In this document: piece after piece, positions 429 to 26,960 of the stretch | How the letters are laid out: the number at the start of each line of letters is the position of its first letter | How positions within the stretch are numbered: position 1 is the stretch's first letter | The notes under the pieces: model-generated | What the model saw: the letters and a program-made list of their open reading frames with translations, nothing else | Databases searched by the model: none | Told to the model about the DNA's origin: nothing | NCBI GenBank assembly: GCA_009760885.1 | Contig: CM019712.1 | Location: 27,077,816 to 27,141,815 of the forward strand | Length of the DNA: 64,000 nucleotides | Reading direction: 5' to 3' | Source of the DNA: Achatina immaculata | Lineage: Eukaryota; Mollusca; Gastropoda; Stylommatophora; Achatinidae | Made by a program: the position numbers and the translations under genes

Positions 429-437
429 CTGCGCCAG
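429..437 (+). CDS. 9-nt microexon 1, type C (CTGCGCCAG)
   Basis: First visible member of the microexon series. A pyrimidine-rich tract ends in ttatttcacag, the exon is CTGCGCCAG, and the donor is gtaagata. In the phase fixed by the downstream VWA exon it reads xCT GCG CCA Gxx, giving Ala-Ala-Pro when the previous exon ends in G. A GAA repeat lies about 75 nt upstream. No exon lies before it in the window, so the series probably began further upstream. Exon use is inferred from splice-site structure and from recurrence in 16 copies, not from transcripts. Confidence 0.78.
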
Positions 438-830
438 GTAAGATATATGCTAGTTGTCTGTAATAGTTAATTGTAAAGATAATGTAGAACGAATTAATTT
501 ATTAAAGAAAAAAACGTAACAACATGTAAATAAGGAAAGTAAATTAACATAATAAATTCTGAGGGAAATTTTGAAACGTGCATTTCAATATAAAATTAGA
601 AGAAAAATAATGAATTAGAAGTTCAGACTGTTACAACTTAGTGTAAACTAAAAGGACAATTTCATTATTGGGTAGTCTTATTTGTCTGAAGACCACTATT
701 TGAGAGAAAGAGAGAGATATATATATATATATATATATACAAAGAAAGAGAGACATAGAGAGAGCGAGAGGAAGAGAGATTGAGAGAGAGAGAGAGTTGA
801 ATAAGAGGGGAAACAAGCTGTCTCTAAAGT

Positions 831-1345
831 TTCATTCATTCATTCATTCCTTTGCATGTCCCTTGCGGAACTTTGCCTCCCAAACAGCACTCCTGTAGGC
901 TTCTCGGTTGTGAGCAAGATGGCCTGCTGCTGCTGCATCCATTTCCAGATCATCAGCGATGTCTTGCAGCCATCTTCGTTTCGGTCTTCCTCTTTTTCTT
1001 TTTCCCATTATGTATCCTTCCAATACGGTCTTCTCTAAATTATCATGACGTTTAATGTGGCCAAAATATTTAAGTTTTCTCTCTTTAATCCTCTTTACTA
1101 GCCAGCCTTCTTCAATATTAAGCTCTTGGAGTATAGATATATTTGTTCTTTTTTGTGTCCACGATATCTGGAGAACTCTTCTGTAGCATTTACATTCAAA
1201 GGCATTTATGTGTTTCTCAGCTGTTTTGTTAACTGTCCAGGTCTCACAGGCATATGTTGCGATAGGAAAGATGCATGCCCTTAATATCTTATTTTTGTGG
1301 TTCTGTCTGCTCCTCTCCACAGATTCTTATTTGTTTTACTTTCTA
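831..1345 (-). pseudogene. LINE 3' fragment, TGAA-tailed family, copy a
   Basis: The minus strand reads a LINE carboxy-terminal region: 'RACIFPIATYACETWTVNKT', 'YFGHIKRHDNLEKTVLEGYI', then 'GRPKRRWLQDIADDLEMDA' and 'REAYRSAVWEAKFRKG'. A 158-residue stretch is open. The 3' end is a short TGAA/ATTC repeat (831-849). The endonuclease and most of the reverse transcriptase are missing, a normal 5'-truncated insertion. It was duplicated together with its host block. Confidence 0.85.
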
Positions 1346-1560
1346 AAGTTTACTTTGCACTATTTTCTCGTAACGAAGGTCTGGGGTTTGAATCATGGCG
1401 GAGACACCTCAATCACCCTGCTGTAAATATGGGTACCTGACTTTTTCTAGACCTGGGGAAGGAAACGCTGCCAGGCGTAATGGTGAATACATCATTCTCT
1501 AGTGTGTTGACAAGTCAAGGAAAATATGAGCACTAACATCATAGCTCTATGTGCCTATTA
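1346..1560 (+). mobile_element. tRNA-derived SINE, 5'-degenerate, copy 1
   Basis: Carries a degenerate tRNA B box (ggtttgaatcat, compare GGTTCGAATCC in the other copies), then the body 'tatgggtacctgactttttct' and the tail module 'gaatacatcattctctagtg'. The A box is not recognisable. The same element lies in most microexon blocks, about 600-1000 nt after each type C microexon. In other blocks its tail module has expanded into a 39-bp minisatellite. Confidence 0.7.
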
Positions 1561-2173
1561 TATATAACAGTGTTATCTTTTCCTTGCGGACTGTTATCGA
1601 AATGTCTTGTTTTAACATATTTATATTATTAGCAATGACTTGCAGCAGTATATCATCTAAAATCACCTGGCACTAATATTTTACACTACAGACTATCATG
1701 TTTATATTCTGCTCTGATGCAATTTCTCATATCCCACGCCTTCTGTTCCGAATACGACTGCCAAGAATTTTACTTTCTCTGATGAGTCCGTTTGTTTGTA
1801 GATATGTACACATACTTACATGTTACACTGATATCCCAAAACAGAGGTTCTCAGCCTGTGGAGACGTGCCTTCTTCGACATCCCGTTTAACCTCAGGGAA
1901 TTTCAGAGTTTCGAGAAACAGTAGGATGCGATCGCAGATTGACAAAATGACTATAACAGTAACTGTAAAAAAGTGTTTAGCTCTGTTGCTGGTCCTATGT
2001 AGCTTAGCTCTGTTGGTGGTCCGATGTAGCTTAGCTCTGTTGCTGGTTGTATGTAGCGGCCTCATTAAACTCGGGGCGTGCCCGTACGTATTCAGTCTTT
2101 GACATCAGGATTTCCTACAATATTTGAAAACAGCTGACTTCAATTATCTCTTGATAGTGTGTTTGATCTAGAC

Positions 2174-2290
2174 AACAACAACAGCAACAAGAACAGCACG
2201 AACAACAAAACAACGAAATAATAACAACAGCCAAAACAACAGTAAAAACAACAAAATAACAATAGCAACATCAAGAACAACAACATTGTT
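2174..2290 (+). repeat. CAA/ACA-rich tract
   Basis: Low-complexity stretch of caacaacaac, aacaacaaaa and similar units. In other blocks this tract lies 70-120 nt before a type T microexon. Here the 1.7-kb duplication junction interrupts the block, so no microexon follows until 4110. Confidence 0.85.
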
Positions 2291-2413
2291 AAGAAAAATA
2301 ATGAATTAGAAGTTCAGACTGTTACAACTTAGTGTAAACTAAAAGGACAATTTCATTATTGGGTAGTCTTATTTGTCTGAAGACCACTATTTGAGAGAAA
2401 GAGAGAGAGATAA

Positions 2414-2462
<49 letters not shown>

Positions 2463-2551
2463 AAGAAAGAGAGACATAGAGAGAGCGAGAGGAAGAGAGA
2501 TTGAGAGAGAGAGAGAGTTGAATAAGAGGGGAAACAAGCTGTCTCTAAAGT

Positions 2552-3068
2552 TTCATTCATTCATTCATTCCTTTGCATGTCCCTTGCGGAACTTTGCCTC
2601 CCAAACAGCACTCCTGTAGGCTTCTCGGTTGTGAGCAAGATGGCCTGCTGCTGCTGCATCCATTTCCAGATCATCAGCGATGTCTTGCAGCCATCTTCGT
2701 TTCGGTCTTCCTCTTTTTCTTTTTCCCATTATGTATCCTTCCAATACGGTCTTCTCTAAATTATCATGACGTTTAATGTGGCCAAAATATTTAAGTTTTC
2801 TCTCTTTAATCCTCTTTACTAGCCAGCCTTCTTCAATATTAAGCTCTTGGAGTATAGATATATTTGTTCTTTTTTGTGTCCACGATATCTGGAGAACTCT
2901 TCTGTAGCATTTACATTCAAAGGCATTTATGTGTTTCTCAGCTGTTTTGTTAACTGTCCAGGTCTCACAGGCATATGTTGCGATAGGAAAGATGCATGCC
3001 CTTAATAATCTTATTTTTGTGGTTCTGTCTGCTCCTCTCCACAGATTCTTTATTTGTTTTACTTTCTA
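2552..3068 (-). pseudogene. LINE 3' fragment, TGAA-tailed family, copy b
   Basis: Second copy of the fragment at 831-1345, carried by the 1.7-kb block duplication. Small indels (for example one extra base near 3005) break the reading frame that is open in copy a. It is therefore not an independent insertion. Confidence 0.85.
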
Positions 3069-3280
3069 AAGTTTACTTTGCACTATTTTCTCGTAACGAA
3101 GGTCTGGGGTTTGAATCATGGCGGAGACACCTCAATCACCCTGCTGTAAATATGGGTACCTGACTTTTTCTAGACCTGGGGAAGGAAACGCTGCCAGGCG
3201 TAATGGTGAATACATCATTCTCTAGTGTGTTGACAAGTCAAGGAAAATATGAGCACTAACATCATAGCTCTATGTGCCTA
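3068..3280 (+). mobile_element. tRNA-derived SINE, copy 2
   Basis: Duplicate of the SINE at 1346-1560, with the same degenerate B box and a single 39-bp tail module. It is carried by the block duplication rather than a new insertion. Confidence 0.7.
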
Positions 3281-3894
3281 TTATATATAACAGTGTTATC
3301 TTTTCCTTGCGGACTGTTATCGAAATGTCTTGTTTTAACATATTTATATTATTAGCAATGACTTGCAGCAGTATATCATCTAAAATCACCTGGCACTAAT
3401 ATTTTACACTACAGACTATCATGTTTATATTCTGCTCTGATGCAATTTCTCATATCCCACGCCTTCTGTTCCGAATACGACTGCCAAGAATTTTACTTTC
3501 TCTGATGAGTCCGTTTGTTTGTAGATATGTACACATACTTACATGTTACACTGATATCCCAAAACAGAGGTTCTCAGCCTGTGGAGACGTGCCTTCTTCG
3601 ACATCCCGTTTAACCTCAGGGAATTTCAGAGTTTCGAGAAACAGTAAGATGCGATCGCAGATTGACAAAATGACTATAACAGTAACTGTAAAAAAGTGTT
3701 TAGCTCTGTTGCTGGTCCTATGTAGCTTAGCTCTGTTGGTGGTCCGATGTAGCTTAGCTCTGTTGCTGGTTGTATGTAGCGGCCTCATTAAACTCGGGGC
3801 GTGCCCGTACGTATTCAGTCTTTGACATCAGGATTTCCTACAATATTTGAAAACAGCTGACTTCAATTATCTCTTGATAGTGTGTTTGATCTAG

Positions 3895-4035
3895 ACAACA
3901 ACAACAGCAACAAGAACAGCACGAACAACAAAACAACGAAATAATAACAACAGCCAAAACAACAGTAAAAACAACAAAATAACAATAGCAACATCAAGAA
4001 CAACAACATTGTTAAGAAAAATAACAAAAAGCAGC
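3895..4035 (+). repeat. CAA/ACA-rich tract before microexon 2
   Basis: Runs of caacaacaac and aacaacaaaa end about 75 nt before the type T microexon at 4110. This is the same relative position seen before every other type T microexon. Confidence 0.85.
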
Positions 4036-4109
4036 AGTCGAGATTCTCTTTCTTTACTAGATTTAAAAAATTTCTGTTAATTTTATTCTTGTCTGTTTTC
4101 ACTTCGCAG

Positions 4110-4118
4110 CAACAACAG
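4110..4118 (+). CDS. 9-nt microexon 2, type T variant (CAACAACAG)
   Basis: The acceptor is tttcacttcgcag, the exon CAACAACAG and the donor gtaagata. Its first base is C where the other T copies have T, so the codon shared with the preceding exon reads G|CA (Ala) instead of G|TA (Val). Frame and both splice sites are kept. The upstream intron is about 3.7 kb because of the 1.7-kb tandem duplication. Confidence 0.75.
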
Positions 4119-4317
4119 GTAAGATAAAAAGTTCATTGTCTGTAATTTAATCATAATGATACACGACACGTAGTTGAAAAATTAAGTTAAGCAGTAAATT
4201 ATAAAGTAAAGTAAAACTGCATTTCAACTGCCCCTCCCCACCTTCGGGTCAAATTTAGAGTATCGAGGGGCTTGGTTTGGAACAAGAAACTTACAAACTC
4301 GGATTGTCTCAATATTA

Positions 4318-4850
4318 TCTTACATGTTATATCCCTCCCGTGCCGTTAAACGTCATATAGAGCTCGCAATTAGTTTTCCATGATTTCCTGTCTTCGGCAA
4401 GCTTTTCAACCTCGTCAAAGGATGTTATGCTCACTAAACTGAGCTCTCTTAATAATGTCCTCTTTAGAGTTTCTCGTGGTCGACCTCTTTTTCTTCGGCC
4501 TGTTGTGCTCCACTTGATAGCTTGTTTTTGGGATTCTCTGGTTGTTTCTTTTCAGCATATGACCGGCATATGTCCATCTTCTTGTTCTGATCACCCATAA
4601 GACAGGTTGTTCTTTGTTCATCTGTCGTATCTCTGCCTTGTTCTTGAATTCGTTCCACTTTATAGCAGTTATTTTCCTGAGTCATTTGTTTTCAAAAAGT
4701 CTCATTTGTTGTGTATTTCTTTAGTTGTTTTCCAACTTTCACATGCAAAAATGAGGGTGGATATTACACTTGAATTGAGTAAACTTAAATTGGTTTTTAT
4801 GTTTATAATTTTTCAATACCATATGTTCTCATGATTATTGAAGGTCAATG
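4318..4850 (-). pseudogene. LINE 3' fragment, ATAAG-tailed family
   Basis: The minus strand shows a LINE carboxy terminus: 'VIRTRRWTYAGHMLKRNNQR', a 'GAQQAEEKEVDHEK' type stretch, and further upstream a remnant related to 'LRLFNSN'. Frames are broken. The 3' end reads into a tatataag-like tail. The same family recurs on the minus strand at 36.7-38.2, 58.7 and 61.3 kb, and on the plus strand at 61.0 and 63.8 kb. Confidence 0.75.
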
Positions 4851-5474
4851 CTGCTTTTATAATTTGAATTCTAACTTCCTATCTGGTGTGACCATCCTCG
4901 TCTATGTATTGTACATACAGGGCTCAATATCATAGGCACATTAATTATTATAACTCTTGATTTGGAGAGAGGGGGGAGGTAGCGTTGATATGACATTGTG
5001 ATATGTATGGACAAAAGTGTGCATGGGATAAAGAATATTGAGAATATCTGTTTTAGAAGTTTCCAAAGAGTATATTTACTGCAGGTTGGAGAATGGATGT
5101 ACTATAAATATCAATGTAAAACAATATTCTAATGGCATTTCTTTAGAAAGTCTTGAATCATGCCTGTGATAACTGTATGTTTATTATCAAACCACCAACA
5201 GCATTAGGATATGTCTCCTTCCGTGTTTAATTTCGTAGTCTTTAAGTCTCCAAATCTGGCCTAAAGTCTGTATATTTTTCAAGAAGTAAATTAGTAAGCA
5301 CCTCTTATTGTTATAGATAAGAAATTATTATAATCGGAAACATACAATAGACTTGTACAAGGCATATCAAATACGGCGCATAAGTTAAAGATGTATTACA
5401 CGGGATTTTATACCATGCCTCTCAGTAAAGTTGAAATAGAAATTTATTTTTAGAATCATGTACTTTTAGTAGAA

Positions 5475-5962
5475 TATTAGAAGAAGAAGAAGAAGAAGAA
5501 GAAGAAGAAGAAGAAGAAGGAGGAGGAGGAGGAGGAGGAGGAAGAAGCAGAAGAAGACGAGGAAGAAGAAAAAGGAGAAGAAACAGTACTTTACACAGAA
5601 AAAGATGGAGATAAAGATGATGATGAAGAAGAAGAAGAAGGAGGAGGAGCAGGAGGAAGAAGCAGAAGAAGACGAGGAAGAAGAAAAAGGAGAAGAAACA
5701 GTACTTTACACAGAAAAAGATGGAGATAAATAAGAAGAAGAAGAAGAAAAGAGGAAGAGGAGGAGGGGGAGGAGGAAGAAGCAGAAGAAGACGAGGAAGA
5801 AGAAAAAGGAGAAGAAACAGTACTTTACACAGAACAAGATGGAGATAAAGATGAAGAAAAAGAAGAAGAAGAAGAAGAAGAAGAGGAGGGGGGGGGGGGA
5901 GGAGGAAACTTAGGAAAAGTAAAGAAAAAGAATAAAAATTAGCACAAGAAGAAGAAGAAGAA
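5475..5962 (+). repeat. Long polypurine (GAA/GGA) tract before microexon 3
   Basis: About 490 nt almost entirely of A and G on the plus strand. It includes three imperfect copies of a roughly 115-nt unit that contains 'acagtactttacacag' and a G-run near 5888. The spurious 186-residue minus-strand frame here is Leu/Pro/Ser low complexity. The tract ends about 70 nt before the type C microexon at 6034. Confidence 0.92.
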
Positions 5963-6033
5963 CACATTATCTTTCTTTCCAAATGTTTTAAAGATTTCAG
6001 TTAATGTTATTCTTTTCGGTTTTTATTTCATAG

Positions 6034-6042
6034 CTGCGCCAG
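6034..6042 (+). CDS. 9-nt microexon 3, type C (CTGCGCCAG)
   Basis: The acceptor is ggtttttatttcatag, the exon CTGCGCCAG and the donor gtaagaca. The acceptor differs from the usual cacag (atag) but keeps AG. In phase 1 it adds Ala-Ala-Pro. Confidence 0.78.
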
Positions 6043-6146
6043 GTAAGACATACGTTATGTGTTTGTAACAGTTACTTATAAAAGTAATTTTGAACGATTA
6101 ATTTTTAAATAAAATACTTAACAAAGATTAGTAATTTAGGAAAATA

Positions 6147-6515
6147 AATTAACCAGGTGTGATGAAGAGTTCTTCAAATATCTTGAACACAGAAAAAAAA
6201 ATAAACATATCCACACTACGCACACTTAATATTGAAAAAGGCTCGCTAGTAAAGAGGATTATAAAAAAAAACTTAAATATTTTGGACACATTAAACGTCA
6301 TGATAATCTAGAGAATACCTCTTTTGAATGGTACACAGTGGGAAAAAGACAGAGAAGAAGACCAAGGCGAAGGTGACTGCAAGACATCGTTGATGATCTG
6401 CAAGTATATGCATCGGTATCAGGCCATTTTTCTCACATCCGAGAAGCCTACATGAGAGCTGTTAGGGAGGCAAAGTTCCGCAACGGGACATGGAAATGAA
6501 TGAATAAATGAATGA
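6147..6515 (+). pseudogene. LINE fragment (TGAA-tailed) inserted in a type C block
   Basis: Broken carboxy-terminal LINE sequence on the plus strand with a TGAA-type tail. It interrupts the sequence 'aaattaacctaataaattctgagg', which is uninterrupted in the blocks at about 540, 12100, 17935, 21070 and 23330. The 9-nt aaattaacc is present on both sides, consistent with a target-site duplication. The same insertion occurs at 8845 and 13362, so it predates those block duplications. Confidence 0.85.
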
Positions 6516-6689
6516 AATTAACCTAATAAATTCTGAGGTAAATTTCGAATCTTGCAATTATACATTAAAGGAGCAAAAAACTAAATTCAAACTTCAGACA
6601 GTTACCACAAATTGTAAAAAGGGAGAATACTTTCACATCTGAGTAGTCCTATTTGTCTGAAGACAAGTATTTCAGACAGAGAGACAGAT

Positions 6690-6726
<37 letters not shown>

Positions 6727-6769
6727 TAGACAGAGAGAGAGAGAGAGGGGGGAAAACAGATGTGTCTAA

Positions 6770-6965
6770 TTCTTGTCTTGCACTTTTATCTCGTGGCGAA
6801 ATCGGGGGTTCGAATCCAAGCTGAGACGTTCCAGTCACCCAGCAGTAGATATGGGTACCTGACTTTTTCTGGAGATGGGGAAGGAAAATCTGACAGGTGT
6901 GATGTTGAATACATCATTTTCTAGTGTGCTGACAGGTCAAGGAAAATATGAGCACTAACGTCATA
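6770..6965 (+). mobile_element. tRNA-derived SINE, copy 3
   Basis: B box ggggttcgaatccaagc, then the 'gatatgggtacctgactttttctgg' body and one tail module 'gaatacatcattttctagtgtgctgacagg'. A single 39-bp module is the unexpanded state. Confidence 0.75.
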
Positions 6966-7584
6966 TCTCTATGTGCCTATCATATATAACAATGTTATCT
7001 TTTCCTTACGGACTATTATCAAAATGTCTTGATATTAATAAATTTGCGTTATTATGGAAGATTTGCAGAAGTATATCATCTAAAATCACCTGGCACTAAT
7101 ACTATACACTACAGACTATCATGTTTATATTCTGCTCTGATGCTAGAGGTCACTGTCAATGTCCCATATCCCAAGCCTTCTGTTCCGAACCAGACTTCCC
7201 AGAATTTTACTTTCTCTGATGAGTCCGTTTGTTTGTAGATTAAATACACATACTTACATGTTAGACTGATATCCCAAAACAGAGGTTCTCAGCCTGTGGA
7301 GACGTGCCTTCTTCGACATCCCGTTTAACCTCAGGGAATTTCAGAGCTTCGAGACACAGTAAGATGCGATTACAGATTGACAAAATGACTGTAACAGTAA
7401 CATTAGGAAAGCGTTTAGCTCTGTTGCTGGTCCTACGTAGCTGTCTCATTAAACTCGGGGCGTGCCCATACGTCTTCAGTCTTTGACTTCGGGATTTAAT
7501 AAAGTGTTTTTAAGTAGATGACTCCAATGACATGATGATAGTATGTTGCCCATGATCTAACATGTGGATACGATTTGAAACCAC

Positions 7585-7640
7585 TGCAACAAGAACAACA
7601 CCAACAAGAACAACAGCAACAACAGATTAAACAACAGCTG
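7585..7640 (+). repeat. CAA/ACA-rich tract before microexon 4
   Basis: Runs of caacaagaacaacaccaac and similar, ending about 75 nt before the type T microexon at 7710. Confidence 0.85.
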
Positions 7641-7709: not shown

Positions 7710-7718
7710 TAACAACAG
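7710..7718 (+). CDS. 9-nt microexon 4, type T (TAACAACAG)
   Basis: The acceptor is tgttttcacttcacag, the exon TAACAACAG and the donor gtaagata. In phase 1 it reads xTA ACA ACA G, giving Val-Thr-Thr after an exon ending in G. In phase 0 it would open with the stop TAA, so only phases 1 and 2 are possible. The VWA exon fixes phase 1. Confidence 0.8.
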
Positions 7719-8720: not shown

Positions 8721-8729
8721 CTGCGCCAG
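8721..8729 (+). CDS. 9-nt microexon 5, type C (CTGCGCCAG)
   Basis: The acceptor is cgatttttatttcacag, the exon CTGCGCCAG and the donor gtaagata. The downstream intron carries the shared LINE insertion with the aaattaacc duplication. Confidence 0.8.
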
Positions 8730-9367: not shown

Positions 9368-9408
<41 letters not shown>

Positions 9409-10970: not shown

Positions 10971-10979
10971 TAACAACAG
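10971..10979 (+). CDS. 9-nt microexon 6, type T (TAACAACAG)
   Basis: The acceptor is tctcttttcacttcacag, the exon TAACAACAG and the donor gtaagata. Gives Val-Thr-Thr in phase 1. Confidence 0.8.
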
Positions 10980-11632
10980 GTAAGATAGAAGTTCATTGTC
11001 TGTTATTTAATCATAATGTTGTTGAAAAGTTTAATTAAACGGTTAATTATGAAAGCAAAGTAAAGGTGCATTTCCACTACCCCACCCTCGGGTCAATTTT
11101 AGAGTATCGAGGGACTGTGGTTTGGGACAAGAAATTTACAAGCTCGGATTTTCTCAAAATTATGCGCACTTATAATTCAGATAACTCTATATTATTGAGA
11201 ATATCTGTTTTAGAAGTTTCCAAAGAGCATATCTACTGCAGGTTGGAGAATGCGTGCACTATAAATACAAATGTAAAACACTGATCTAATGGTATTTCTT
11301 CTTATTAGAAAGTCTGAATCATGCGTGTGATAACTGTATGTTTATTATCAAACCACCAACTGCATTAGGATATGTCTCCTTCCGTGTTTCATTTCGTAAT
11401 CTTTAAGTCTCCAATCTGGCCTAAAGTCTGTAGATTTTTCAAAGACTGAATTAGTAAGCACATCATATTGTTATACAGAAGAAATTATCAGAATCTGAAA
11501 CACAGAATAGACTCGTACAAGGCGTATTGAATAAGTCAAAGATGCACTACGTGGCATTTAATACCATGTCTCTCATTAAAGTTCAAATAGAAATTTATTT
11601 TTTACAATCTCTGTTCTTTTAATAGAAATCTA

Positions 11633-11910
11633 GAAACAAAGAAGAAGAACAACAACAACAACAACAATTAGAGCAAAAAAGCAGTACTTTAAATAGACTA
11701 AGATGGAAGAAGAAAATGATTGATTGATTGATTGATTGATTGATCTTTATTTCAAAAGAAGAAGCGGAAGAAGAGAATAAGAACAAAAAAGAAAAAGAAG
11801 TGTAGAAGAAAAAGAAGAAAATGAAGAAGAACAAAAAAGAAAAAGAAAAACTAGAAAAAGAGTCGAAGAAGAAGAAGTAGGAGAAAAGAAGAAAAAGAAG
11901 AAGAAGAACG
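11633..11910 (+). repeat. Polypurine tract with GATT repeat before microexon 7
   Basis: A purine-rich run interrupted by 'agcagtactttaaatagac' and a short gattgattgatt repeat (about 11718-11743). It ends about 70 nt before the type C microexon. Confidence 0.9.
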
Positions 11911-11978
11911 CATTATTTATCTTTCCCATTTTTTCCCAAATTCTGTTAATGTTATTCTTCTCTTGTCTTTTTTCACAG

Positions 11979-11987
11979 CTGCACCAG
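11979..11987 (+). CDS. 9-nt microexon 7, type C variant (CTGCACCAG)
   Basis: The acceptor is cttgtcttttttcacag, the exon CTGCACCAG and the donor gtaagaca. The G to A change against CTGCGCCAG is synonymous in phase 1 (GCG to GCA, both Ala). Confidence 0.8.
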
Positions 11988-12344
11988 GTAAGACATACTT
12001 TATGTGTCTGTAGTAGTTAATTATAAAGCTAATGTAGAACGATTAATTTCTTAATTAAAAGTACATAAAAAATACTCGTAATTTAGGAAAGTAAATTAGC
12101 CTAATAGATTCTAGGGGACATTTCTAATCGTAAAATTCAACACAAAATTAGAAAAACAAATAAATTCGAACTTCAGACTGTTGCCAGGCAATTGAAAAAA
12201 GAAAGAATACTTTCACATCTAAGTAGTTTTATTTGTCTGAAGACCGCAGTTTGAGAGAGAGATAGAGAGAGAGAGAGAGAGATGGATAGAGAGAGAGAGA
12301 GAGAGAGATGAATGAGAGGTGAGAAAAGATACCTCTAATTCTTT

Positions 12345-12463
12345 TCTTGCAAAATTATGCGGTCCCGAAGGTCAGGGGTTCGAATCCTGGCGGAGACGCC
12401 CCAGTCATTCAGCTGTAGATATGGGTACCTGACTTTTTCTGGAACGGGGGAAGGAATAACTGC
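12345..12463 (+). mobile_element. tRNA-derived SINE, copy 5 (tail expanded)
   Basis: B box ggggttcgaatcctggcgg and body 'gatatgggtacctgactttttctgg' run directly into the 39-bp minisatellite at 12464. The minisatellite repeats the SINE's own tail module. Confidence 0.78.
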
Positions 12464-13040
12464 CAGGTGTGATGTTGAATACATCATTCTCTAGTGTGCT
12501 GACAATTGTGATGGTGAATACATCATTCTCTAGTGTGCTGTCAGGTGTGATGGTGAATACATCATTCTCTAGTGTGCTGTCAGGTGTGATGGTGAATACA
12601 TCATTCTCTAGTGTGCTGTCAGGTGTGATGGTGAATACGTCATTCTCTAGTGTGCTGTCAGGTGTGATGGTGAATACATCATTCTCTAGTGTGCTGTCAG
12701 GTGTGATGGTGAATACATCATTCTCTAGTGTGCTGTCAGGTGTGATGGTGAATACGTCATTCTCTAGTGTGCTGTCAGGTGTGATGGTGAATACATCATT
12801 CTCTAGTGTGCTGACAAGTGTGATGGTGAATACGTCATTCTCTAGTGTGCTGACAAGTGTGATGGTGAATACGTCATTCTCTAGTGTGCTGACAAGTGTG
12901 ATGGTGAATACGTCATTCTCTAGTGTGCTGTCAGGTGTGATGGTGAATACGTCATTCTCTAGTGTGTTGACAGGTGTGATGGTGAATACATCATTCTCTA
13001 GTGTGCTGACAAGCGTGTTGTTGAATACATCATTTTCTAG
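12464..13040 (+). repeat. 39-bp minisatellite grown from the SINE tail (about 15 copies)
   Basis: Units of the form tgtgatggtgaatacatcat + tctctagtgtgctgacaag, with small variants (cat/cgt, gtcagg/acaagt). The period is 39 bp, divisible by three, and the unit lacks stops in several frames. This alone explains the 218- and 194-residue open frames on the two strands. The array ends at a junction with the polypurine stretch at about 13044. Confidence 0.95.
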
Positions 13041-13059
13041 TCTGCAAAAGTAGTACTTC

Positions 13060-13165
13060 AAATAGAATAAGATGGAAGATGAAGATAAAGATGAAGAAGA
13101 AGTAGATGAGGAGGAGAAGAAGAAAAAGAAAAGAAAAAGAAGAAAAAGAGCACAAAAATAAGAAG
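13060..13165 (+). repeat. Polypurine tract before microexon 8
   Basis: Duplicate of the tract at about 8535-8640, ending 74 nt before the microexon at 13239. Confidence 0.88.
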
Positions 13166-13238
13166 ACCGTGTTAACTTTCTTTCTTTTTTTTCTCAGTAT
13201 TTCAATTAATGTTATTCTTCTCGATTTTTATTTCACAG

Positions 13239-13247
13239 CTGCGCCAG
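13239..13247 (+). CDS. 9-nt microexon 8, type C (CTGCGCCAG)
   Basis: The acceptor is cgatttttatttcacag, the exon CTGCGCCAG and the donor gtaagata. It is a block copy of microexon 5. It follows microexon 7 directly, so two type C exons are adjacent. The missing T exon is explained by the duplication junction at about 13044. Confidence 0.8.
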
Positions 13248-15372: not shown

Positions 15373-15373
15373 G

Positions 15374-15479: not shown

Positions 15480-15488
15480 TAACAACAG
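15480..15488 (+). CDS. 9-nt microexon 9, type T (TAACAACAG)
   Basis: The acceptor is tctcttttcacttcacag, the exon TAACAACAG and the donor gtaagata. Block copy of microexon 6. Gives Val-Thr-Thr in phase 1. Confidence 0.8.
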
Positions 15489-16832: not shown

Positions 16833-16841
16833 TAAGAACAG
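16833..16841 (+). CDS. 9-nt microexon 10, type T variant (TAAGAACAG)
   Basis: The acceptor is tctcttttcacttcacag, the exon TAAGAACAG and the donor gtaagaca. A C to G change turns ACA (Thr) into AGA (Arg) in phase 1 and keeps the frame. It also creates a GTAAG across the acceptor boundary (cagtaag), which might compete as a donor. It follows T microexon 9 directly because a C exon was lost at the 16390 junction. Confidence 0.7.
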
Positions 16842-17823: not shown

Positions 17824-17832
17824 CTGCACCAG
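17824..17832 (+). CDS. 9-nt microexon 11, type C variant (CTGCACCAG)
   Basis: The acceptor is cttgtcttttttcacag, the exon CTGCACCAG and the donor gtaagaca. Block copy of microexon 7. Gives Ala-Ala-Pro in phase 1. Confidence 0.8.
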
Positions 17833-19735: not shown

Positions 19736-19883
19736 AACTGTCTCATTAAACTCGGGGCGTGCCCGTACGTGTTCAGTCTTTGACATCAGGATTTAAGAAA
19801 GTGTTTTTAAGCAGTTGACTCCAGTGATATGCCCATAGTATTTTGCCCATAATCTAGCATTTGGATACGATTTTAAACCACTG

Positions 19884-19922
19884 CAACAACAACAACAACA
19901 ACAACAACAACAGCACAACAGC
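19884..19922 (+). repeat. CAA tract before microexon 12
   Basis: A pure caacaacaac run, then cagcacaacagctgg, ending about 70 nt before the microexon at 19994. Confidence 0.85.
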
Positions 19923-19993
19923 TGGAAGTATCTTTATTTATTAGATTTTAAGAAATTCAGCTAAATGTATTCTTGTCTGTTTTCACTTCACAG

Positions 19994-20002
19994 TAACAAC
20001 AG
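19994..20002 (+). CDS. 9-nt microexon 12, type T (TAACAACAG)
   Basis: The acceptor is tgttttcacttcacag, the exon TAACAACAG and the donor gtaagata. Gives Val-Thr-Thr in phase 1. Confidence 0.8.
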
Positions 20003-20727
20003 GTAAGATAAATGTTCGTTGTCTGTAATTTAATCATAATGTAGTTGAAAAGTTTAACTAAAAATTACATTATAAAAGTAAAGTAAAGCTGCATTTATTC
20101 TACTGCTGCCTGCCCCTCGGATCAGTGCTAGAGTATCGATGATCTGTGGGTGGGGCAAGAAATGTACACACTCGAACTTTCTCAATATTATACGCACTTA
20201 TTGTTCAGAAACTCACGATTGTTTTTTTTTATATGACATTGTGATACGTATGGAGAAAAGTGTTTATGGGGTAAAAAATATTGAGAAGAACTGTTTTAGA
20301 AGTTTCCAAAGAGCATATTTACTGCAGGCTGGAGTATGGATGTATTATAAATATCAAGGTAAAACACTAACCTAATGACAGTTCTTCTAAGTAGAAAGTC
20401 CTGAATCATGCGTGTGATAACTACGTTTATTATCAAACCACCAACTGCATTAGGACATGTTTCCTTCCGTGTTTGACTTCTTAATCTTTAAGACTCCAAA
20501 TCTGGCCTAAAGTCTGTAGATTTTTCAAGGTCTAAATTAGTAAGCAACTCTTATTGCTATACAGAAGAAATTATCAGAATCGGAAACACAGAATAGACTC
20601 GTACAAGGCATATCGAATATGGAGCATAGGTTAAAGATGTACTTACCTGGTATTTTATTCAATGTCTCTCATTAAAGTTGAAACAGAAATGTATTTTTAC
20701 AGTATGTATACTTTTAATAAAATACCA

Positions 20728-20890
20728 GAAGAAGAAGAACATGATGAACGGAAAAAAGAAGAAGAAGAGGAAGAAGGAGAGCAAAAAGAAGCAGTATTTC
20801 AAATAGAATAAGATGAAGAAGAAGCGGAAGATTAGAATAAGTAGAAAACAAAAAAGAAAAAAAAGAGAAGAAGAAGAAGAAGAAGAACGC
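20728..20890 (+). repeat. Polypurine tract before microexon 13
   Basis: A GAA-rich run containing 'gcagtatttcaaatagaata', ending about 70 nt before the type C microexon. Confidence 0.9.
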
Positions 20891-20957
20891 ATTATCTTTC
20901 TCTCATTTTTTTTCAAGATTTCAGTAAATGTTATTTTTCTCTGTTTTTATTTATCAG

Positions 20958-20966
20958 CTGCACCAA
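20958..20966 (+). CDS. 9-nt microexon 13, type C variant (CTGCACCAA)
   Basis: The acceptor is gtttttatttatcag, the exon CTGCACCAA and the donor gtaagtta. The last base is A, giving AA|GTAAGT, which remains close to the donor consensus. The codon shared with the next exon becomes A|TA (Ile) instead of G|TA (Val). Frame is kept. Confidence 0.78.
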
Positions 20967-21256
20967 GTAAGTTACACATTATATGTCTGTAACAGTTAAT
21001 TACATAGATAATTTAGAACGATTAATTTCTTAATTTAAGAACAAAATGAAAGACTCAGAAATTAGGAAAGTAAATTAACCTAATAAATTCTGAGGTAAGT
21101 TTGGAATCGTACCGTTTCAACATAAAATTAGAAGAAAAGAAAATTAATTAGAACTTCAGACTGTTACCTCTAAGTTTAAACTTGAGAATACTTTCACATT
21201 TGAATAGTCTTACTTGTCTGAAGAGCAGTATTTGATAGATACACAGAGATAGAGAT

Positions 21257-21306
<50 letters not shown>

Positions 21307-21339
21307 GAATGAGAGGGGGGGAAAGATGTTTGTAATTCT

Positions 21340-21454
21340 TGTTTTATACCATTTATCTCGTCGCGAAGGTCGAAGGTTCGAATCCTGGCAGAGACGTCCC
21401 AGTCACCCAGCTGTAGATATGGGTACCTGACTGAGGAAGGAAAAACTGAAAAGT
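21340..21454 (+). mobile_element. tRNA-derived SINE, copy 8 (tail expanded, body shortened)
   Basis: B box gaaggttcgaatcctggc and 'gatatgggtacctgactgagg'. The 'ctttttctgg' part of the body seen in other copies is missing here and in the copy at 23575, supporting their shared descent. Confidence 0.75.
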
Positions 21455-22008
21455 GTGATGGTGAATACATCATTCTCTAGTGTACTGACAGTTGTGATGC
21501 TGAATACATCATTCTCTAGTGTGCTGACATGTGTGATGTTGAATACATCATTTTCTAGCGTGTTGAAAGGTGTGATGTTGAATACATCATTCATTAGTGT
21601 GCTGTCAGTTCTGATGCTGAATACATTATTCTCTAGTGTGCTGACTGATGTGATGTTGAATACATTATTCTCTGGTGTTATGACAGATGTGATGGTGAAT
21701 ACATCATTCTCTAATGTGATGACAGGTGTGATGGTGAATACACCATTCTCTAGTGTGCTGACAAATGTGATGATAGAAACATCATTCTCTAGTGTGATGA
21801 CAGGTGTGATGGTGAATACACCATTCTCTAGTGTGCTGACAAATGTGATGATAGAAACATCATTCTCTAGTGTGATGACAGGTGTGATGGTGAATACATC
21901 ATTCTCTAGTGTGCTGACAAATGTGATGATAGAAACATCATTCTCTAGTGTGATGACAGGTGTGATGGTGAATACATCATTCTCTAGTGTGCTGACAAAT
22001 GTGATGAT
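21455..22008 (+). repeat. 39-bp minisatellite grown from the SINE tail (about 14 copies)
   Basis: More diverged units than in the 12.4- and 18.3-kb arrays, with a higher-order pair in the right half (a 'ggtgaatac' unit alternating with a 'gatagaaac' unit). The 235- and 207-residue frames here are repeat-derived. Confidence 0.93.
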
Positions 22009-22142
22009 ATTGGCCGGGAAGAGCACCGCTCCACGCACGGCAGCTGAAGATCTCGCCAACAGCGGTTTAAGCAGATGACTCCAGTGATATACCCATAGTA
22101 TTTTGCCCATAATCTAGCATTTGGATACGATTTTAAACCACT

Positions 22143-22144
22143 GC

Positions 22145-22178
<34 letters not shown>

Positions 22179-22187
22179 CAACAGCTG
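22143..22187 (+). repeat. CAA tract before microexon 14
   Basis: Longest pure CAA run of the series, ending about 70 nt before the microexon at 22257. Confidence 0.85.
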
Positions 22188-22256
22188 GAAGTATCTTTAT
22201 TTATTAGATTTTAAGAAATTCAGCTAAATGTATTCTTGTCTGTTTTCACTTCACAG

Positions 22257-22265
22257 TAACAACAG
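22257..22265 (+). CDS. 9-nt microexon 14, type T (TAACAACAG)
   Basis: The acceptor is tgttttcacttcacag, the exon TAACAACAG and the donor gtaagata. Preceded by a C exon ending in A, so its first codon reads Ile: Ile-Thr-Thr. Confidence 0.8.
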
Positions 22266-22987
22266 GTAAGATAAATGTTCGTTGTCTGTAATTTAATCAT
22301 AATGTAGTTGAAAAGTTTAACTAAAAATTACATTATGAAAGTAAAGTAAAGCTGCATTTATTCTACTGATGCCCGCCCCTCGGGTCAGTGCTAGAGTATC
22401 GATGATCTGTGGGTGGGGCAAGAAATGTACACACTCGAACTTTCTCAATATTATACGCACTTATAATTCAGAAACTCACGATTGTTTTTTTTTATATGAC
22501 ATTGTGATGTGTATGGACAAAAGTGTTTATGGAGTAAAAAATATTGAGAATAACTGTTTTAGAAGTTTCCAAAGAGCATATTTACTGCAGGTTGGAGTAT
22601 GGATGTACTATAAATATCAAGGTAAAACACTAACCTAATGACAGTTCTTCTAATTAGAAAGTCCTGAATCATGCGTGTGATAACTACGTTTATTATCAAA
22701 CCACCAACTGCATTAGGACATGTCTCCTTCCGTGTTTGACTTCTTAGTATTTAAGACTCCAAATCTGGCCTAAAGTCTGTAGATTTTTCAAGGTCTAAAT
22801 TAGTAAGCAACTCTTATTGCTATACAGAAGAAATTATCAGAATCGGAAACACAGAATAGACTCGTACAAGGCATATCGAATATGGAGCATAGGTTAAAGA
22901 TGTACTTACCTGGTATTTTATTCAATGTCTCTCATTAAAGTTGAAACAGAAATGTATTTTTACAGTATGTATACTTTTAATAAAATA

Positions 22988-23145
22988 CCAGAAGAAGAAG
23001 AACATGATGAACGGAAAAAAAGAAGAAGAGGAAGAAGGAGAGCAAAAAGAAGCAGTATTTTAAATAGAATAAGATGAAGAAGAAGCTGAAGATTAGAATA
23101 AGAAGAAAACAAAAAAGAAAAAGAAGAGAAGAAGAAGAAGAAGAA
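22988..23145 (+). repeat. Polypurine tract before microexon 15
   Basis: Block copy of the tract at 20728-20890, ending about 72 nt before the microexon. Confidence 0.9.
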
Positions 23146-23215
23146 CGCGTTATCTTTCTCTCCGTTTTTTTCAAGATTTCAGTAAATGTTATTTTTCTCT
23201 GTTTTTACTTATCAG

Positions 23216-23224
23216 CTGCACCAA
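23216..23224 (+). CDS. 9-nt microexon 15, type C variant (CTGCACCAA)
   Basis: The acceptor is gtttttacttatcag, the exon CTGCACCAA and the donor gtaagtta. Block copy of microexon 13. Its final A joins CT of the next exon to give Thr. Confidence 0.78.
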
Positions 23225-23502
23225 GTAAGTTACACGTTATGTGTCTGTAACAGTTAATTACATAGATAATTTAGAACGATTAATTTCTTTATTTAAGAAC
23301 AAAATGAAAGACTCAGAAATTAGGAAATTAAATTAACCTAATAAATTCTGAGGTAAGTTTGGAATCGTACCGTTTCAACATAAAATTAGAAGAAAAAAAA
23401 GTTAATTAGAACTTCAGACTGTTACCTCTAAGTGTAAACTTGAGAATACTTTCACATTTGAGTAGTCTTACTTGTCTGAAGAGCAGTATTTGATAGACAC
23501 AC

Positions 23503-23545
<43 letters not shown>

Positions 23546-23574
23546 TGAATGAGAGGGGGGGGGAAGATGTTTGT

Positions 23575-23690
23575 AATTCTTGTTTTATACTATTTATCTC
23601 GTCGCGAAGGTCGAGGGTTCGAATCCTGGCAGAGACGTCCCAGTCAGCCAGCTGTAGATATGGGTACCTGACTGAGGAAGGAAAAACTGA
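23575..23690 (+). mobile_element. tRNA-derived SINE, copy 9
   Basis: B box gagggttcgaatcctggc and 'gatatgggtacctgactgagg', then the short minisatellite. Confidence 0.75.
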
Positions 23691-23930
23691 AAAGTGTAAT
23701 GATGAATACATCATTCTCTAGTGTGCTGACAAATGTGATGATAGAAACATCATTCTCTAATGTGATGACAGGTGTGATAGTGAATACATCATTATCTAGT
23801 GGTCTGACAAATGCGATGGTGAATACATCATTCTCTGGTGTGCTGACAAATGTGATGATGAATACATCATTTTCTAGTTTGCTGACACTTGTGATGGTGA
23901 ATACATCATTCTCTAGTGTGCTAACAGGTC
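23691..23930 (+). repeat. 39-bp minisatellite grown from the SINE tail (about 6 copies)
   Basis: Short array with mixed 'ggtgaatac' and 'gatagaaac' units, ending in the flank 'gctaacaggtcaaggaaaat' that follows every SINE copy. Confidence 0.93.
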
Positions 23931-24389
23931 AAGGAAAATATGAGCACTAACATCATAGCCCTATGTGCCTATCATATATACCAGTGTTATCTTTTCCTTA
24001 CTGACTTTTATCGAAATGTCTTGATGTTAACAAAATTATATTATTAGCTATGACCTGTAGTAGTATATCATCTAAAATCACCTGGCAGTAATACTTTACA
24101 CTACACACTATCATGTTTATATTCTGTTCAGATACTAGAATTGACTTTCAATGTCTCATATCCCACGCATTCTGCTCCGAACCAGATGCCCAGAATTTTA
24201 CTTTCTGCAATGATTGATTCGTTGTTTTTCTTTGTAGACATGTATATACGCTTATTTGTTAGAGTGCTGTCTGACAAGAAAGGTTCTCAAACAGTGAGAA
24301 TGTCCCTTCTAATTCCTTCCCCTGCACCCTGGGACGTTTAGTTTCCAGAGCCAGCTGTTTGAGAACGAAAATAGTTATCACCAAGGAGT

Positions 24390-24510
24390 GTTCGACAATG
24401 CTCATCAGAAACACCGAAGATCTAAAGCAAGTAGCAAGGAATCGTCAGACATGGAGAGCTTTGTCCTCCGCCCTATGCGCCGCCTTTGGCCCAGGAGGAG
24501 TAACTAACTA
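24390..24510 (+). pseudogene. LINE extreme C-terminus with AACT tail
   Basis: The plus strand reads 'RNTEDLKQVARNRQTWRALS' followed by 'SALCAAFGPGGVTN' and a stop that falls inside the AACT repeat. This matches the usual ending of LINE ORF2 proteins (Arg/Trp-rich segment, then a small-residue end). Only the last 35-40 residues remain. The microsatellite that follows is its 3' tail. Confidence 0.7.
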
Positions 24511-24544
24511 ACTAACTAACTAACTACGTAACTAACTGACTAAG

Positions 24545-24582
<38 letters not shown>

Positions 24583-24600
24583 CGTAACTAACTGACTAAG

Positions 24601-24631
<31 letters not shown>

Positions 24632-24677
24632 ACTAACTAACTAACTAACTAACTACTAACTAACTAACTAACTAACT

Positions 24678-24712
<35 letters not shown>

Positions 24713-24720
24713 GTAACTTA
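24499..24720 (+). repeat. AACT tetranucleotide array (LINE tail)
   Basis: About 220 bp of taactaactaac with scattered interruptions (tacg, tgac, aaac). It begins exactly at the LINE stop codon, so it probably expanded from that element's tail. It ends about 55 nt before microexon 16, in the place where other C exons have a polypurine tract. Confidence 0.92.
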
Positions 24721-24773
24721 CTCGTTTTTCAGGATCTCAATTAATTTCATTGTTCTTTATGTTTATTTCACAG

Positions 24774-24782
24774 CTATACCAG
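24774..24782 (+). CDS. 9-nt microexon 16, type C variant (CTATACCAG)
   Basis: The acceptor is ctttatgtttatttcacag, the exon CTATACCAG and the donor gtaagata. The middle codon changes from GCG (Ala) to ATA (Ile). It is the last microexon before the VWA exon, and the joint reads Ile-Pro-Val-Pro-Val-Cys. It lies outside the recent block duplications, so keeping its splice sites suggests constraint. Confidence 0.75.
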
Positions 24783-24799
24783 GTAAGATATACGTTCAG

Positions 24800-25397
24800 T
24801 GTCTGTAATTGTTAATTTTATTTTGTAAAGGTTATTAAACGGTAAATAAATATGAAAGTAAACTAACCTAGTAAATTCCTAAGGAAATCTACAAAGGTAA
24901 ATTTCAAGAGCAAATTAGAAAAGTAACTTAGGAAGCAAAATCAAGCTGTTCTTTATATCGTACAAACCGGACTTGAAAATGAAGTCACGATTCTGTGTTG
25001 TTAATTTCATACGAGTTTGATTGAGATAGAATACGTTAATACCACTAGGGAGAAGCAGTATGCATTGAAGATTACTGTACTTACACTCTGTTAAACTTCT
25101 AGTTGAGCACAAGCAACATATCAGCTTTCTCAAGATTTACACTTACCCAGCATACATAGATCCAGACTTTAATTCCAGCTTCCGCATCACATTTCTATAG
25201 CTTTCCCTTCTATTTCTTGTTGACCTTCGCATCCCTGATGGACTTGACCTAACCTATCAGACCTTCTACCCTGTCTTTATTTACCTTATTAACAACTAAC
25301 CTCTCAGACTTTCTCTCCATCCTCTATTCATCTTAAGAATAGCTAACCCTTCAGAACTTCTCTCCATTCTCTATTCATCTTAGGAACTACTAACCCC
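24800..25397. other. Intron sequence, no gene seen
   Basis: Unique AT-rich intron sequence up to about 25200, then a degenerate pyrimidine-rich repeat (about 25254-25398, units around 'cttctctccattctctattc'). I see no exon. Confidence 0.6.
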
Positions 25398-26000
25398 TCA
25401 GAAGAATTGGAGAGTTTTGAATATCTTGGATCACTGCTAACTAATAATGGAGATACAATGAGGGAAATTAAAAGGAGGACATCTATCGCTCTTCAGAAAG
25501 TAAAACAACTAAAGAATCTGTGGAGAGGAACAGAAGAACTACAAAAATAAGATTTTTAAGGGCATGCATCTTTCCCATCGCAACATATGCCTGTGAGACC
25601 TGGACACTTAACAAAACAGCTGAGAAACACATAAATGCCTTTGAATGTAAATGCTACAGAAGTGTTCTTGAAATATCATGGACACAAAAAAGAACAAATA
25701 TATCCTTACTACAAGAACTTAATATTGAAGAAGGCTGGCTAGTATAGAGGATTAAACAGAGAAAACGTAAATATTTTGGACACATTAAACGTCATGATAA
25801 TCGAAAGAAAACTGTCTTGGAAGGGTGCATAATGGGAAAAAGAAAAAGAGGAAGACCAAGGCGAAGATGGCTGCAAGACATCGTTGATGATCTGCAAATG
25901 GATGCATCAGCAGCAGGCCATCTTGCTCACAACCGAGAGGCCTACAGGAGTGCTGTTAGGGCGGCAAAGTTCCGCAAGGAACATGCACATGAATGAATGA
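25398..26000 (+). pseudogene. LINE 3' fragment, TGAA-tailed family, plus strand
   Basis: Reads 'NRRTTKIRFLRACIFPIATY', 'ACETWTLNKTAEKHINAFEC', then after one stop 'GRPRRRWLQDIVDDLQMDAS', with a gaatgaatgatg end. It is the best-preserved copy of this fragment. The sequence gatggacttgac occurs both at about 25238 and just after the element at about 26002, a possible target duplication. Confidence 0.87.
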
Positions 26001-26339
26001 TGATGGACTTGACTGATTTATTGTTCGTGAAGGCAATTAAAATATGCCTTCTTTCTACAGTTCTCATTTTTTTGGCCTGGTTAGAGCTCTTCTCTGAAAG
26101 ACCTGATAGATGTCTTCTTCAGGTAACAAGAATCCCCGTCTTATCTACATGTTAACTTCTTGTCACACAACTTTCATATTATTATACATTCCATTATCAA
26201 GAATAGACCAGCAACTGGCTAACAATGTGAATGGTAAAACTGGATATAAAACATAATGCAGTACACACACATAAATAATTATACAGAGAAAACCTAAACG
26301 ACGTTTAGAACAAGCTGAGACGTACAGTATCAGACACTA

Positions 26340-26960
26340 TATACATTTATTATTTATTGTGTCTTGTCGTACTTAAAGAATAAGAAACTTGATAAATTTT
26401 GTAATTTTTTATGTTTTGTCGTATCTACACTAGATATATTTTGTAATTTTATTATGTCTTGTTGTATCTACATATCTGACAGTAGATAGATTCTGTAATT
26501 TTTTTATATCTTGTCGTATCTACATATCTGTCATCTAAGTGTCAGACACTAGATAAACATTTTATATGTGTGTTTTGTAGCCTTGAATGTGAAACATCAG
26601 ATACATTTGTTATTCATTTATGTGTTTCTTGTAGTACTTTAATGAGAAACACAAATTCAATTTGCGATTTTTGTGTCTTGTAGTAACTATCTGTGAGACA
26701 TCAAGTAAAGATGTGATTTTTGTGTCTTGTAGTACCTGTCTGTAAGACATCAGGTAAATATGTGATTTTTGTGTCTTGTAGTATCTGTCTGTGAGACACC
26801 AAGTAAAGACGTTATTTTTGTGTTTTGTAGTATCTGTCTGTGAGACACCAGTTAAATCTATGATTTTTACTTCTTGAAGTACTTGTCTGTGAGACACCAG
26901 GTAAATCTGTGATTTTTGTGTCTTGTAGTACCTGTCTGTAAGATACGAGGTAAAGACGTG
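26340..26960 (+). repeat. 49-bp tandem array of VWA exon-boundary units
   Basis: Seven units with exact 49-bp spacing start at 26635, 26684, 26733, 26782, 26831, 26880 and 26929. Each has a 'tttttgtgtcttgtag' acceptor, a 21-nt exon-like piece (TACCTGTCTGT...CAG type) and usually a GTAAA donor-like piece. The last unit is the true start of VWA exon 1. Older, more diverged units ('gtcttgtcgtac', 'gttttgtcgtatc') extend left to about 26340. The array copies the intron/exon boundary itself. Confidence 0.93.

Follow-up and report, generated by a model that had tools for sequence, protein, structure and literature searches.

Results

A row of 9-nucleotide units ahead of a VWA domain

Does a row of 9-nucleotide (nt) segments in a gene of the snail Achatina immaculata consist of exons, and what would such exons add to the protein? 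The row lies in C29:27077816-27141815, a stretch of 64,000 nt (hereafter the window) from a 1.65-Gb assembly of 145 contigs; feature positions are counted from the first nucleotide of the window, and negative coordinates lie upstream of its start. The assembly has 69 matches to PF14830, the haemocyanin beta-sandwich family of molluscs, most of them in two clusters on C18 and C20, whereas 14 control genomes gave none. A preliminary description had listed 16 sites with the layout AG, 9 nt and GTAAG in front of an exon for a VWA domain and had stated that every AG and every GTAAG is intact. All 16 sites were found at their positions, each with a pyrimidine-rich acceptor. Profiles of ±60 bp around two classes of unit, class A (CTGCRCCAR and CTATACCAG) and class B (YAACAACAG and TAAGAACAG), were searched against the window at E < 0.001 without requiring an intact splice site, and they matched exactly these 16 units, so that no decayed copy was detected in the window by this search. 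The array is larger than 16 when the whole gene is considered: that count holds for the window, but the array begins outside it, with units at -2957 and -2587. We consider, with a probability of roughly 0.8, that these units are genuine symmetric (1-1) microexons of a gene for a secreted protein, in which they would encode a spacer of Thr, Pro and Ala that evolves in length through changes in the number of exons.

The bare AG-N9-GTAAG pattern is not rare, occurring 43 times on the forward and 15 times on the reverse strand in 264 kb (Markov mean 23.2). Inside the interval of the array, 19 forward and no reverse matches were counted (Markov mean 2.3), and matches with a pyrimidine-type acceptor numbered 14 (Markov mean 0.05). 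The 19 matches comprise the sites 11445, 15934, 17287 and 26733 together with 15 of the 16 units, because the AG of site 429 lies outside the cut. Over the whole window, the 21 forward matches are the 16 members and five non-members. Three of the latter (11445, 15934 and 17287; ACTGAATTA) were rejected as members, having TGA in phase 1 and lying within duplicated segments; 26733 and 26929 (TACCTGTCT) are not units either, the second being the start of VWA exon 1. A further 11 units of 9 nt, whose flanks are related but have diverged, lie in the 200 kb around the window, of which 120 kb are on the upstream side and 80 kb on the downstream side.

Reading phase, spacer sequence and gene model

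The units had been assigned to phase 1 throughout, and phase 1 was the sole phase free of stops across the 23 distinct 9-mers, stops being present in two of them in phase 0 and in five in phase 2. Read in this phase, the 18 units follow the order VIP ETT AAP ATT AAP VTT AAP VTT AAP AAP VTT VRT AAP VTT AAP ITT AAP TIP. The AAPVTT repeat proposed before the VWA domain was thus borne out as regards the AAP- and VTT-type units, but their order is not strictly AAPVTT, and the row ends in TIP followed by VPVCK. The resulting spacer, VIPETTAAPATTAAPVTTAAPVTTAAPAAPVTTVRTAAPVTTAAPITTAAPTIP, stands ahead of VPVCK and has 54 residues, 9% of the model; the 57 residues counted through VPV include 17 Ala, 16 Thr and 11 Pro and no Ser.

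The predicted gene starts with a signal-peptide-like exon and continues with six cysteine-rich (Cys-rich) exons, C1 to C6, the 18 microexons and three VWA exons. Every joint predicted between the first exon and VWA exon 1 is in phase 1, and the lengths of C1 to C6 are multiples of three; symmetric exons between phase-1 joints leave the frame unchanged however many 9-nt exons are included. The joined model reads through 584 residues without a stop (3′ end not included). Its VWA domain (PF00092) scored 93.2 bits vs a cut-off of 23.8, matched positions 1-171 of 174 (E 2.9e-26) and starts with DDSGS, which fits the DxSxS motif that we take to be the start of the VWA metal site. Relatives of the whole model in the PDB comprised 48 distinct sequences at E ≤ 0.01; the best was the collagen VI alpha-3 chain (9han, matching through the VWA domain, E 1.4e-35), followed by PTMP1 (4cn8, E 9.6e-31). 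Among 213 candidates from a set of 5.8 billion proteins, no VWA homologue reached E ≤ 0.001 with a query that carried one extra Ser. For the Cys-rich part, SVWC (PF15430; best 14.4 bits vs 27, with the whole protein as query) and VWC (PF00093; 13.1 vs 27.6) remained below their cut-offs, and other matches were weak too. Cys half-modules were not found before C1 or after C6, in a comparison that was not clean, the paralogue introns themselves being alike. A giant gene with many VWA domains was ruled out, as signal-peptide and Cys-rich exons recur before the VWA exons of the stretch read. The product is predicted to be a secreted protein, and a role in matrix, adhesion or mucus may be inferred for it.

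Two further duplications lie in this gene. VWA exon 2 is present in two copies within an 880-bp duplication (98.6% identity), both open and with splice sites, and at most one or the other can be used because including both breaks the frame. The C1 exon is duplicated as well.

Conservation of unit length and splice sites

The length of the units was examined in the 1.65-Gb assembly with the pattern TTATTTCACAG-N(1-30)-CAGGTAAGA, which leaves the exon free to vary from 4 to 33 nt and sees only units with these flanks. All 22 matches were exactly 9 nt long and all 22 fell in the cluster on C29 (27.01-28.37 Mb); the reversed pattern gave none. A diverged third type of unit (ATAAGCCAG, ATAAGACAG, ATAAGCCGG and ATAAGCAAG, encoding DKP, DKT or DKQ) was searched with TTTCTTCCACAG-N(3-33)-GTAAGTT and gave seven matches; the five in the cluster were all 9 nt, and the other two were 33 and 15 nt. 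When lengths of 3 to 30 nt between a strong acceptor and GTAAG were scanned over 264 kb, length 9 was seen 25 times on the forward and never on the reverse strand, and no other length exceeded three forward or five reverse occurrences, except 26 nt (12 forward, in a satellite described below). A position-weight scan of acceptor and donor flanks (spacing 1-60, thresholds 12 and 8) likewise yielded 25 pairs at spacing 9; three pairs at other spacings overlap known units, and the reverse strand gave none.

A tree was built from the flanks of 33 intact units (27 + 6) to compare the rates of change. It contained no change in AG and none in GTAAG, which holds for these 33 units only, because damaged sister units were left out. 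Flank columns changed 3.5 times upstream and 4.2 times downstream on average, and exon columns 1 to 9 changed 7, 5, 5, 6, 5, 6, 2, 2 and 1 times (mean 4.3). This pattern points to constraint on splicing and unit length rather than on exact residues, as expected for a low-complexity spacer. Of 33 microexon donors, 31 agree with CAG/GTAAGT at no fewer than 8 of the 9 positions, compared with 3 of 10 ordinary donors in this gene, and the pyrimidine fraction of the acceptors averages 0.79 in microexons vs 0.53-0.76 for nine ordinary ones; an exon of only 9 nt would require such strong splice sites. The introns between microexons measure 0.4-3.7 kb. SRRM4-type control, for which the motif is UGC upstream of the exon, was considered and rejected: TGC is present within 40 nt upstream of only 2 of 27 units.

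A tandem gene family with varying numbers of units

A search with the C5 exon gave 27 matches, 14 strong (68-100% identity) and 13 weak (30-34%). The 14 strong ones all lie on C29 at 26.735-28.305 Mb, as do 11 of the 13 weak ones, and they represent at least 13 gene copies, because two of the 14 are only 2.2 kb apart. The VWA search gave 87 matches (150 of 200 candidates scored), some among the C5 matches and many on other contigs. Genome-wide, the unit pattern with no or one mismatch found 32 units, all at 27.01-28.37 Mb of C29; with two mismatches, 20 of 27 matches were in that range; with three mismatches there were 157 matches vs 62 for the reversed control, and among the matches listed all were elsewhere.

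Sister arrays were examined in the 10-kb stretches before five sister VWA exons and in one 10-kb minus-strand piece. Microexons were seen in 11 of the 13 gene copies, at 1 to 18 per gene (1, 1, 1, 2, 3, 3, 5, 5-6, 6, at least 13 and 18; lower bounds where a gene was partly read). In 7 of 13 copies the units are followed, in the same orientation, by a VWA exon 1 match, and in 2 of 13 by a VWA exon 3 match alone. Two groups have no strong C5 match. One comprises three minus-strand units at 27551904-27555467 and is followed by an exon 3 match at 27544977; the other comprises the units 27843097 and 27848075, with an exon 3 match behind them at 27851810. Within the cluster, 9-nt units between C5 and VWA occur in both orientations. 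At 61877, a signal-peptide-like stretch carries Thr where the start Met would be expected; together with a solitary 9-nt unit close by at 67085 (TTATTCAAG), it may be what is left of a further gene copy.

Duplications within the array

Self-comparison of the array revealed nested duplications of one or two units each. The clearest, of 3382 bp and 98.4% identity, relates the units 8721 and 10971 to 13239 and 15480; further ones measure 2543 bp (95.4%), 1885 bp (94.0%) and 1381 bp (97.7%), and older ones have 72-80% identity. The 16 units therefore amount to about 10 lineages and are not independent, because several are recent segmental copies. Two five-unit sister arrays (28231021 and 28324645) have the order xxP-ETT-AAP-ETT-AAP, which suggests that this was the older core; the VTT units of the 18-unit gene differ from the ETT core units by one base, in the first codon.

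Evidence against the exon reading and alternative explanations

The exon positions and phases, the conservation of splice sites and length, the distribution among paralogues and the duplication history are established from the sequence. Several observations nevertheless weigh against reading the units as microexons. The coding letters do not change more slowly than the flanks and give no sign of selection on exact residues. Shuffles lack phase-1 stops in 6.9% of cases, so that stop avoidance is weak on its own, and the exact-flank patterns detect only units carrying the family's own flanks. For the units 67085 and 129905, the position-weight matrix favours a spacing of 8, shifted by one base, but an AG is present only in the 9-nt reading and none at spacing 8. 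Among sister units, two of eight in one 10-kb piece are damaged (donor GAAAG at 27462586 and GTAAAT at 27459814), and 27848075 has the acceptor CTG. Two of the 13 copies, one partly read and the other searched by pattern only, showed no microexon, and two unit-bearing copies (27194882 and 27923664) have no VWA exon match behind. Finally, the duplicated VWA exon 2 requires skipping of one copy, and comparison of the 3′ flanks of two genes did not reveal a terminal exon after VWA exon 3: most of the similarity came from repeats, and a 39-bp match lacked clear splice sites.

One alternative is that the microexons are real and serve in sister genes but that the 18-unit copy is decaying or silent, or that most of its units are skipped, its long array being neutral. 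In most sister genes between 1 and 6 units were seen, some of them broken; VWA exon 2 and the C1 exon are duplicated in the 18-unit gene, and a large share of its units arose as recent segmental copies. However, all exons found in that gene are open and have splice sites, including the signal-peptide-like exon and 18 of 18 microexons, and the broken units occur in sister arrays, unlike in the 18-unit copy. We regard this explanation as unlikely.

We think it still less probable that the units are intronic repeats with splice-like decoys that never serve as exons, the array being a by-product of segmental duplication. The array does lie in duplicated, repeat-rich intron DNA, its residues are no more conserved than the flanks, and the same gene has an unrelated 82-bp satellite with 12 strong AG-26 nt-GTAAG units that are unable to code. 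Decoys of this kind would not account for splice dinucleotides and a 9-nt length that persist while flanks and 9-mers diverge, for the location of the units between Cys-rich and VWA exons on the same strand wherever both kinds of exon were seen, or for phase 1, which is set by the flanking exons, being alone stop-free in all 23 distinct units. Recursive-splicing or ratchet points for the removal of long introns, with the 9-nt insert incidental, are very improbable: strong AG and GTAAG do stand near each other in long introns, but recursive splice sites are AG/GT without an intervening exon, the 9 nt are kept in 22 of 22 genome matches, the introns are only 0.4-3.7 kb long, and three sister genes show one unit only.

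Other repeats and feature coordinates

Copies of a 49-bp tandem repeat, made of the acceptor and the first ~37 nt of VWA exon 1, run up to that exon and end in it; similar copying of the 49-bp type was seen before VWA exon 1 of sister genes (L027, L029 and L030). They were rejected as 21-nt microexons, as the gaps would be 28-nt introns, which are too short. The 82-bp satellite (13.7 copies, 30034-31147) lies in a VWA intron, and 12 of its copies have a strong AG, 26 nt and GTAAG. It does not qualify as a second microexon array, 26 nt not being a multiple of three and phase 1 meeting TGA, and amounts to a tandem of splice-site decoys. The window also contains a (GTTA)n microsatellite of ~1 kb at 62074-63099, (TAAC)n at 24501-24722 and, at 46546-50089, a large tandem array of degenerate 54/104-bp units whose plus strand is rich in T. 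Open frames at 39899-42947 and 55845-57962 resemble, by eye, the endonuclease and reverse transcriptase of long interspersed nuclear elements (LINE). All feature coordinates are given in Table 1.

Table 1. Features of the 18-unit gene and its surroundings (positions relative to the window) and units counted after the C5 exon of each gene copy (positions on C29)
Feature	Position	Strand	Remarks
Signal-peptide-like first exon MCRLAIFNVLLILPILTSAQ	-29051		ends in phase 1; recurs in sister genes
Cys-rich exons	C1 -25024, C2 -21675, C3 -16151, C4 -11362, C5 -8015, C6 -5250		all 1-1
Predicted microexon array	-2957 to 24774		18 units, between C6 and VWA exon 1
Microexon CTGCGCCAG (AAP)	429..437	+	type A
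Microexon CAACAACAG (ATT)	4110..4118	+	type B
Microexon CTGCGCCAG (AAP)	6034..6042	+	type A
Microexon TAACAACAG (VTT)	7710..7718	+	type B
Microexon CTGCGCCAG (AAP)	8721..8729	+	type A; segmental copy of 13239
Microexon TAACAACAG (VTT)	10971..10979	+	type B; segmental copy of 15480 and 16833
Microexon CTGCACCAG (AAP)	11979..11987	+	type A; segmental copy of 17824
Microexon CTGCGCCAG (AAP)	13239..13247	+	type A
Microexon TAACAACAG (VTT)	15480..15488	+	type B
Microexon TAAGAACAG (VRT)	16833..16841	+	type B
Microexon CTGCACCAG (AAP)	17824..17832	+	type A
Microexon TAACAACAG (VTT)	19994..20002	+	type B; segmental copy of 22257
Microexon CTGCACCAA (AAP)	20958..20966	+	type A; next codon then starts with A; segmental copy of 23216
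Microexon TAACAACAG (ITT when following 20958)	22257..22265	+	type B
Microexon CTGCACCAA (AAP)	23216..23224	+	type A
Microexon CTATACCAG (TIP when following 23216)	24774..24782	+	type A; last before VWA
49-bp tandem copies	26623..26966	+	
VWA exon 1 (VPVCKIRGKDVIFLMDDSGS...)	26929..27164	+	enters phase 1, leaves phase 0
VWA exon 2	28098..28260	+	phase 0 to 1
VWA exon 2, second near-identical copy	29139..29301	+	
VWA exon 3	31989..32165	+	enters phase 1; ends at GTAAGT; stop soon after if read through
Extra 9-nt units outside the window	-66450, -61648, -2957, -2587, 67085, 123255, 125130, 126174, 127041, 129062, 129905		
Units after C5	26735271		at least 1; 7.5 kb unread
Units after C5	26834348		1
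Units after C5	27004188		2; fully read
Units after C5	27069799		18; gene with window array; fully read
Units after C5	27194882		6; no VWA match behind
Units after C5	27257356		at least 3; 10.6 kb unread
Units after C5	27490076	-	13; one donor broken, one weak
Units after C5	27733208		0 seen; 8 kb unread; VWA present
Units after C5	27923664		3; no VWA match behind
Units after C5	28000750		0 by pattern search alone; no VWA match either
Units after C5	28124828		1
Units after C5	28213109		5
Units after C5	28302710		5 or 6

Discussion

The reading of the array as symmetric microexons that form a spacer before the VWA domain, as the preliminary description had proposed, was upheld by phase, by the conservation of splice sites and length across paralogues and by the position between Cys-rich and VWA exons. 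From these data we infer that the units are actually spliced and that the product is secreted and glycosylated, with a spacer function and a matrix or mucus role. Each unit would be recognized via its unusually strong splice sites and, as follows from the phase, would add one tripeptide while keeping the frame. Because the units are symmetric and stand between phase-1 joints, spacer length is free to change by segmental duplication and possibly by skipping. Units would be gained by duplication of blocks of ~1-4 kb; the duplications are observed in the array, and some form of exchange may have produced them. Spacer length, which differs between genes in the genome, could thereby perhaps also differ between transcripts through skipping. 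Judging from its composition, the Thr-rich, Pro-spaced chain may be O-glycosylated and extended, and it would hold a ligand-binding VWA domain away from the N-terminal Cys-rich modules. We would give about even odds to the broader proposition that at least 13 secreted VWA genes set the length of a mucin-like spacer by the copy number of 9-nt exons (1 to 18), a repeat-number polymorphism acting via splicing and not via a tandem repeat in the coding sequence, with many spacer lengths possible among the transcripts of one gene.

Exons of 9 nt are near the lower limit of exon definition by the spliceosome, and here up to 18 consecutive predicted microexons of identical length and phase are kept across one gene family. 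The differing unit counts form a natural series for a test of how strings of microexons are spliced, and the damaged sister units (27462586, 27459814 and 27848075) are useful as a record of decay. The family would also offer a route by which spacer length evolves tripeptide by tripeptide. Arrays of 9-nt exons are probably overlooked by standard annotation and short-read mapping.

Comparison with known systems

Literature searches, which did not cover most subscription journals, listed papers on micro-exon genes, bicycle genes, mucus and VWA-based adhesion; among the titles and abstract openings listed, none describes fixed-length arrays of 9-nt exons or reports microexons for a VWA gene of molluscs. 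In schistosome micro-exon genes (MEGs), the larger part of the coding sequence consists of microexons, whereas the snail microexons account for only 162 of the 1753 nt of the model. MEGs are described as encoding secreted proteins and as having 10 to 20 very short exons, which are separated by long introns and in most cases have a length divisible by three (PMC10526429), and several have Thr/Ser/Pro-rich disordered regions with heavy O-glycosylation predicted (PMC4671649). The snail gene resembles MEGs in that short symmetric exons follow one another in a series flanked by longer exons (18 predicted, from C6 to VWA exon 1). Unlike the MEG exons, which are reported to vary in size (6-81 bp or 3-81 bp), the snail units are all 9 nt and are confined to a 54-residue spacer in a protein with Cys-rich and VWA parts. 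The schistosome-like architecture that had been claimed for a different kind of gene was seen, the likeness being one of architecture alone and the gene of another kind.

The bicycle genes of aphids, a highly divergent family with putatively secreted products, contain many small exons nearly all in one phase (PMC9168663), and the snail gene shares with this portrayal its strings of small same-phase exons and its putatively secreted product. The internal exons of bicycle genes are reported to be almost all in phase 2 (PMC9168663), and their proteins to have saposin-like folds (PMC13041983), whereas the snail exons are in phase 1 and would encode a low-complexity linker. In the portions of these sources available, neither MEGs nor bicycle genes are described with a fixed 9-nt exon used solely as a spacer beside ordinary domains.

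As regards the VWA domain, the snail gene model differs from collagen VI alpha-3 in having no collagen repeat and a single VWA domain. PTMP1, a proximal thread matrix protein of the mussel byssus, has two VWA domains (PMC4754843), and the snail gene, too, is predicted to encode a molluscan extracellular VWA domain. Unlike PTMP1, for which the available part of the source mentions no Cys-rich N-terminal modules beside its two VWA domains, the snail model combines Cys-rich modules with one VWA domain.

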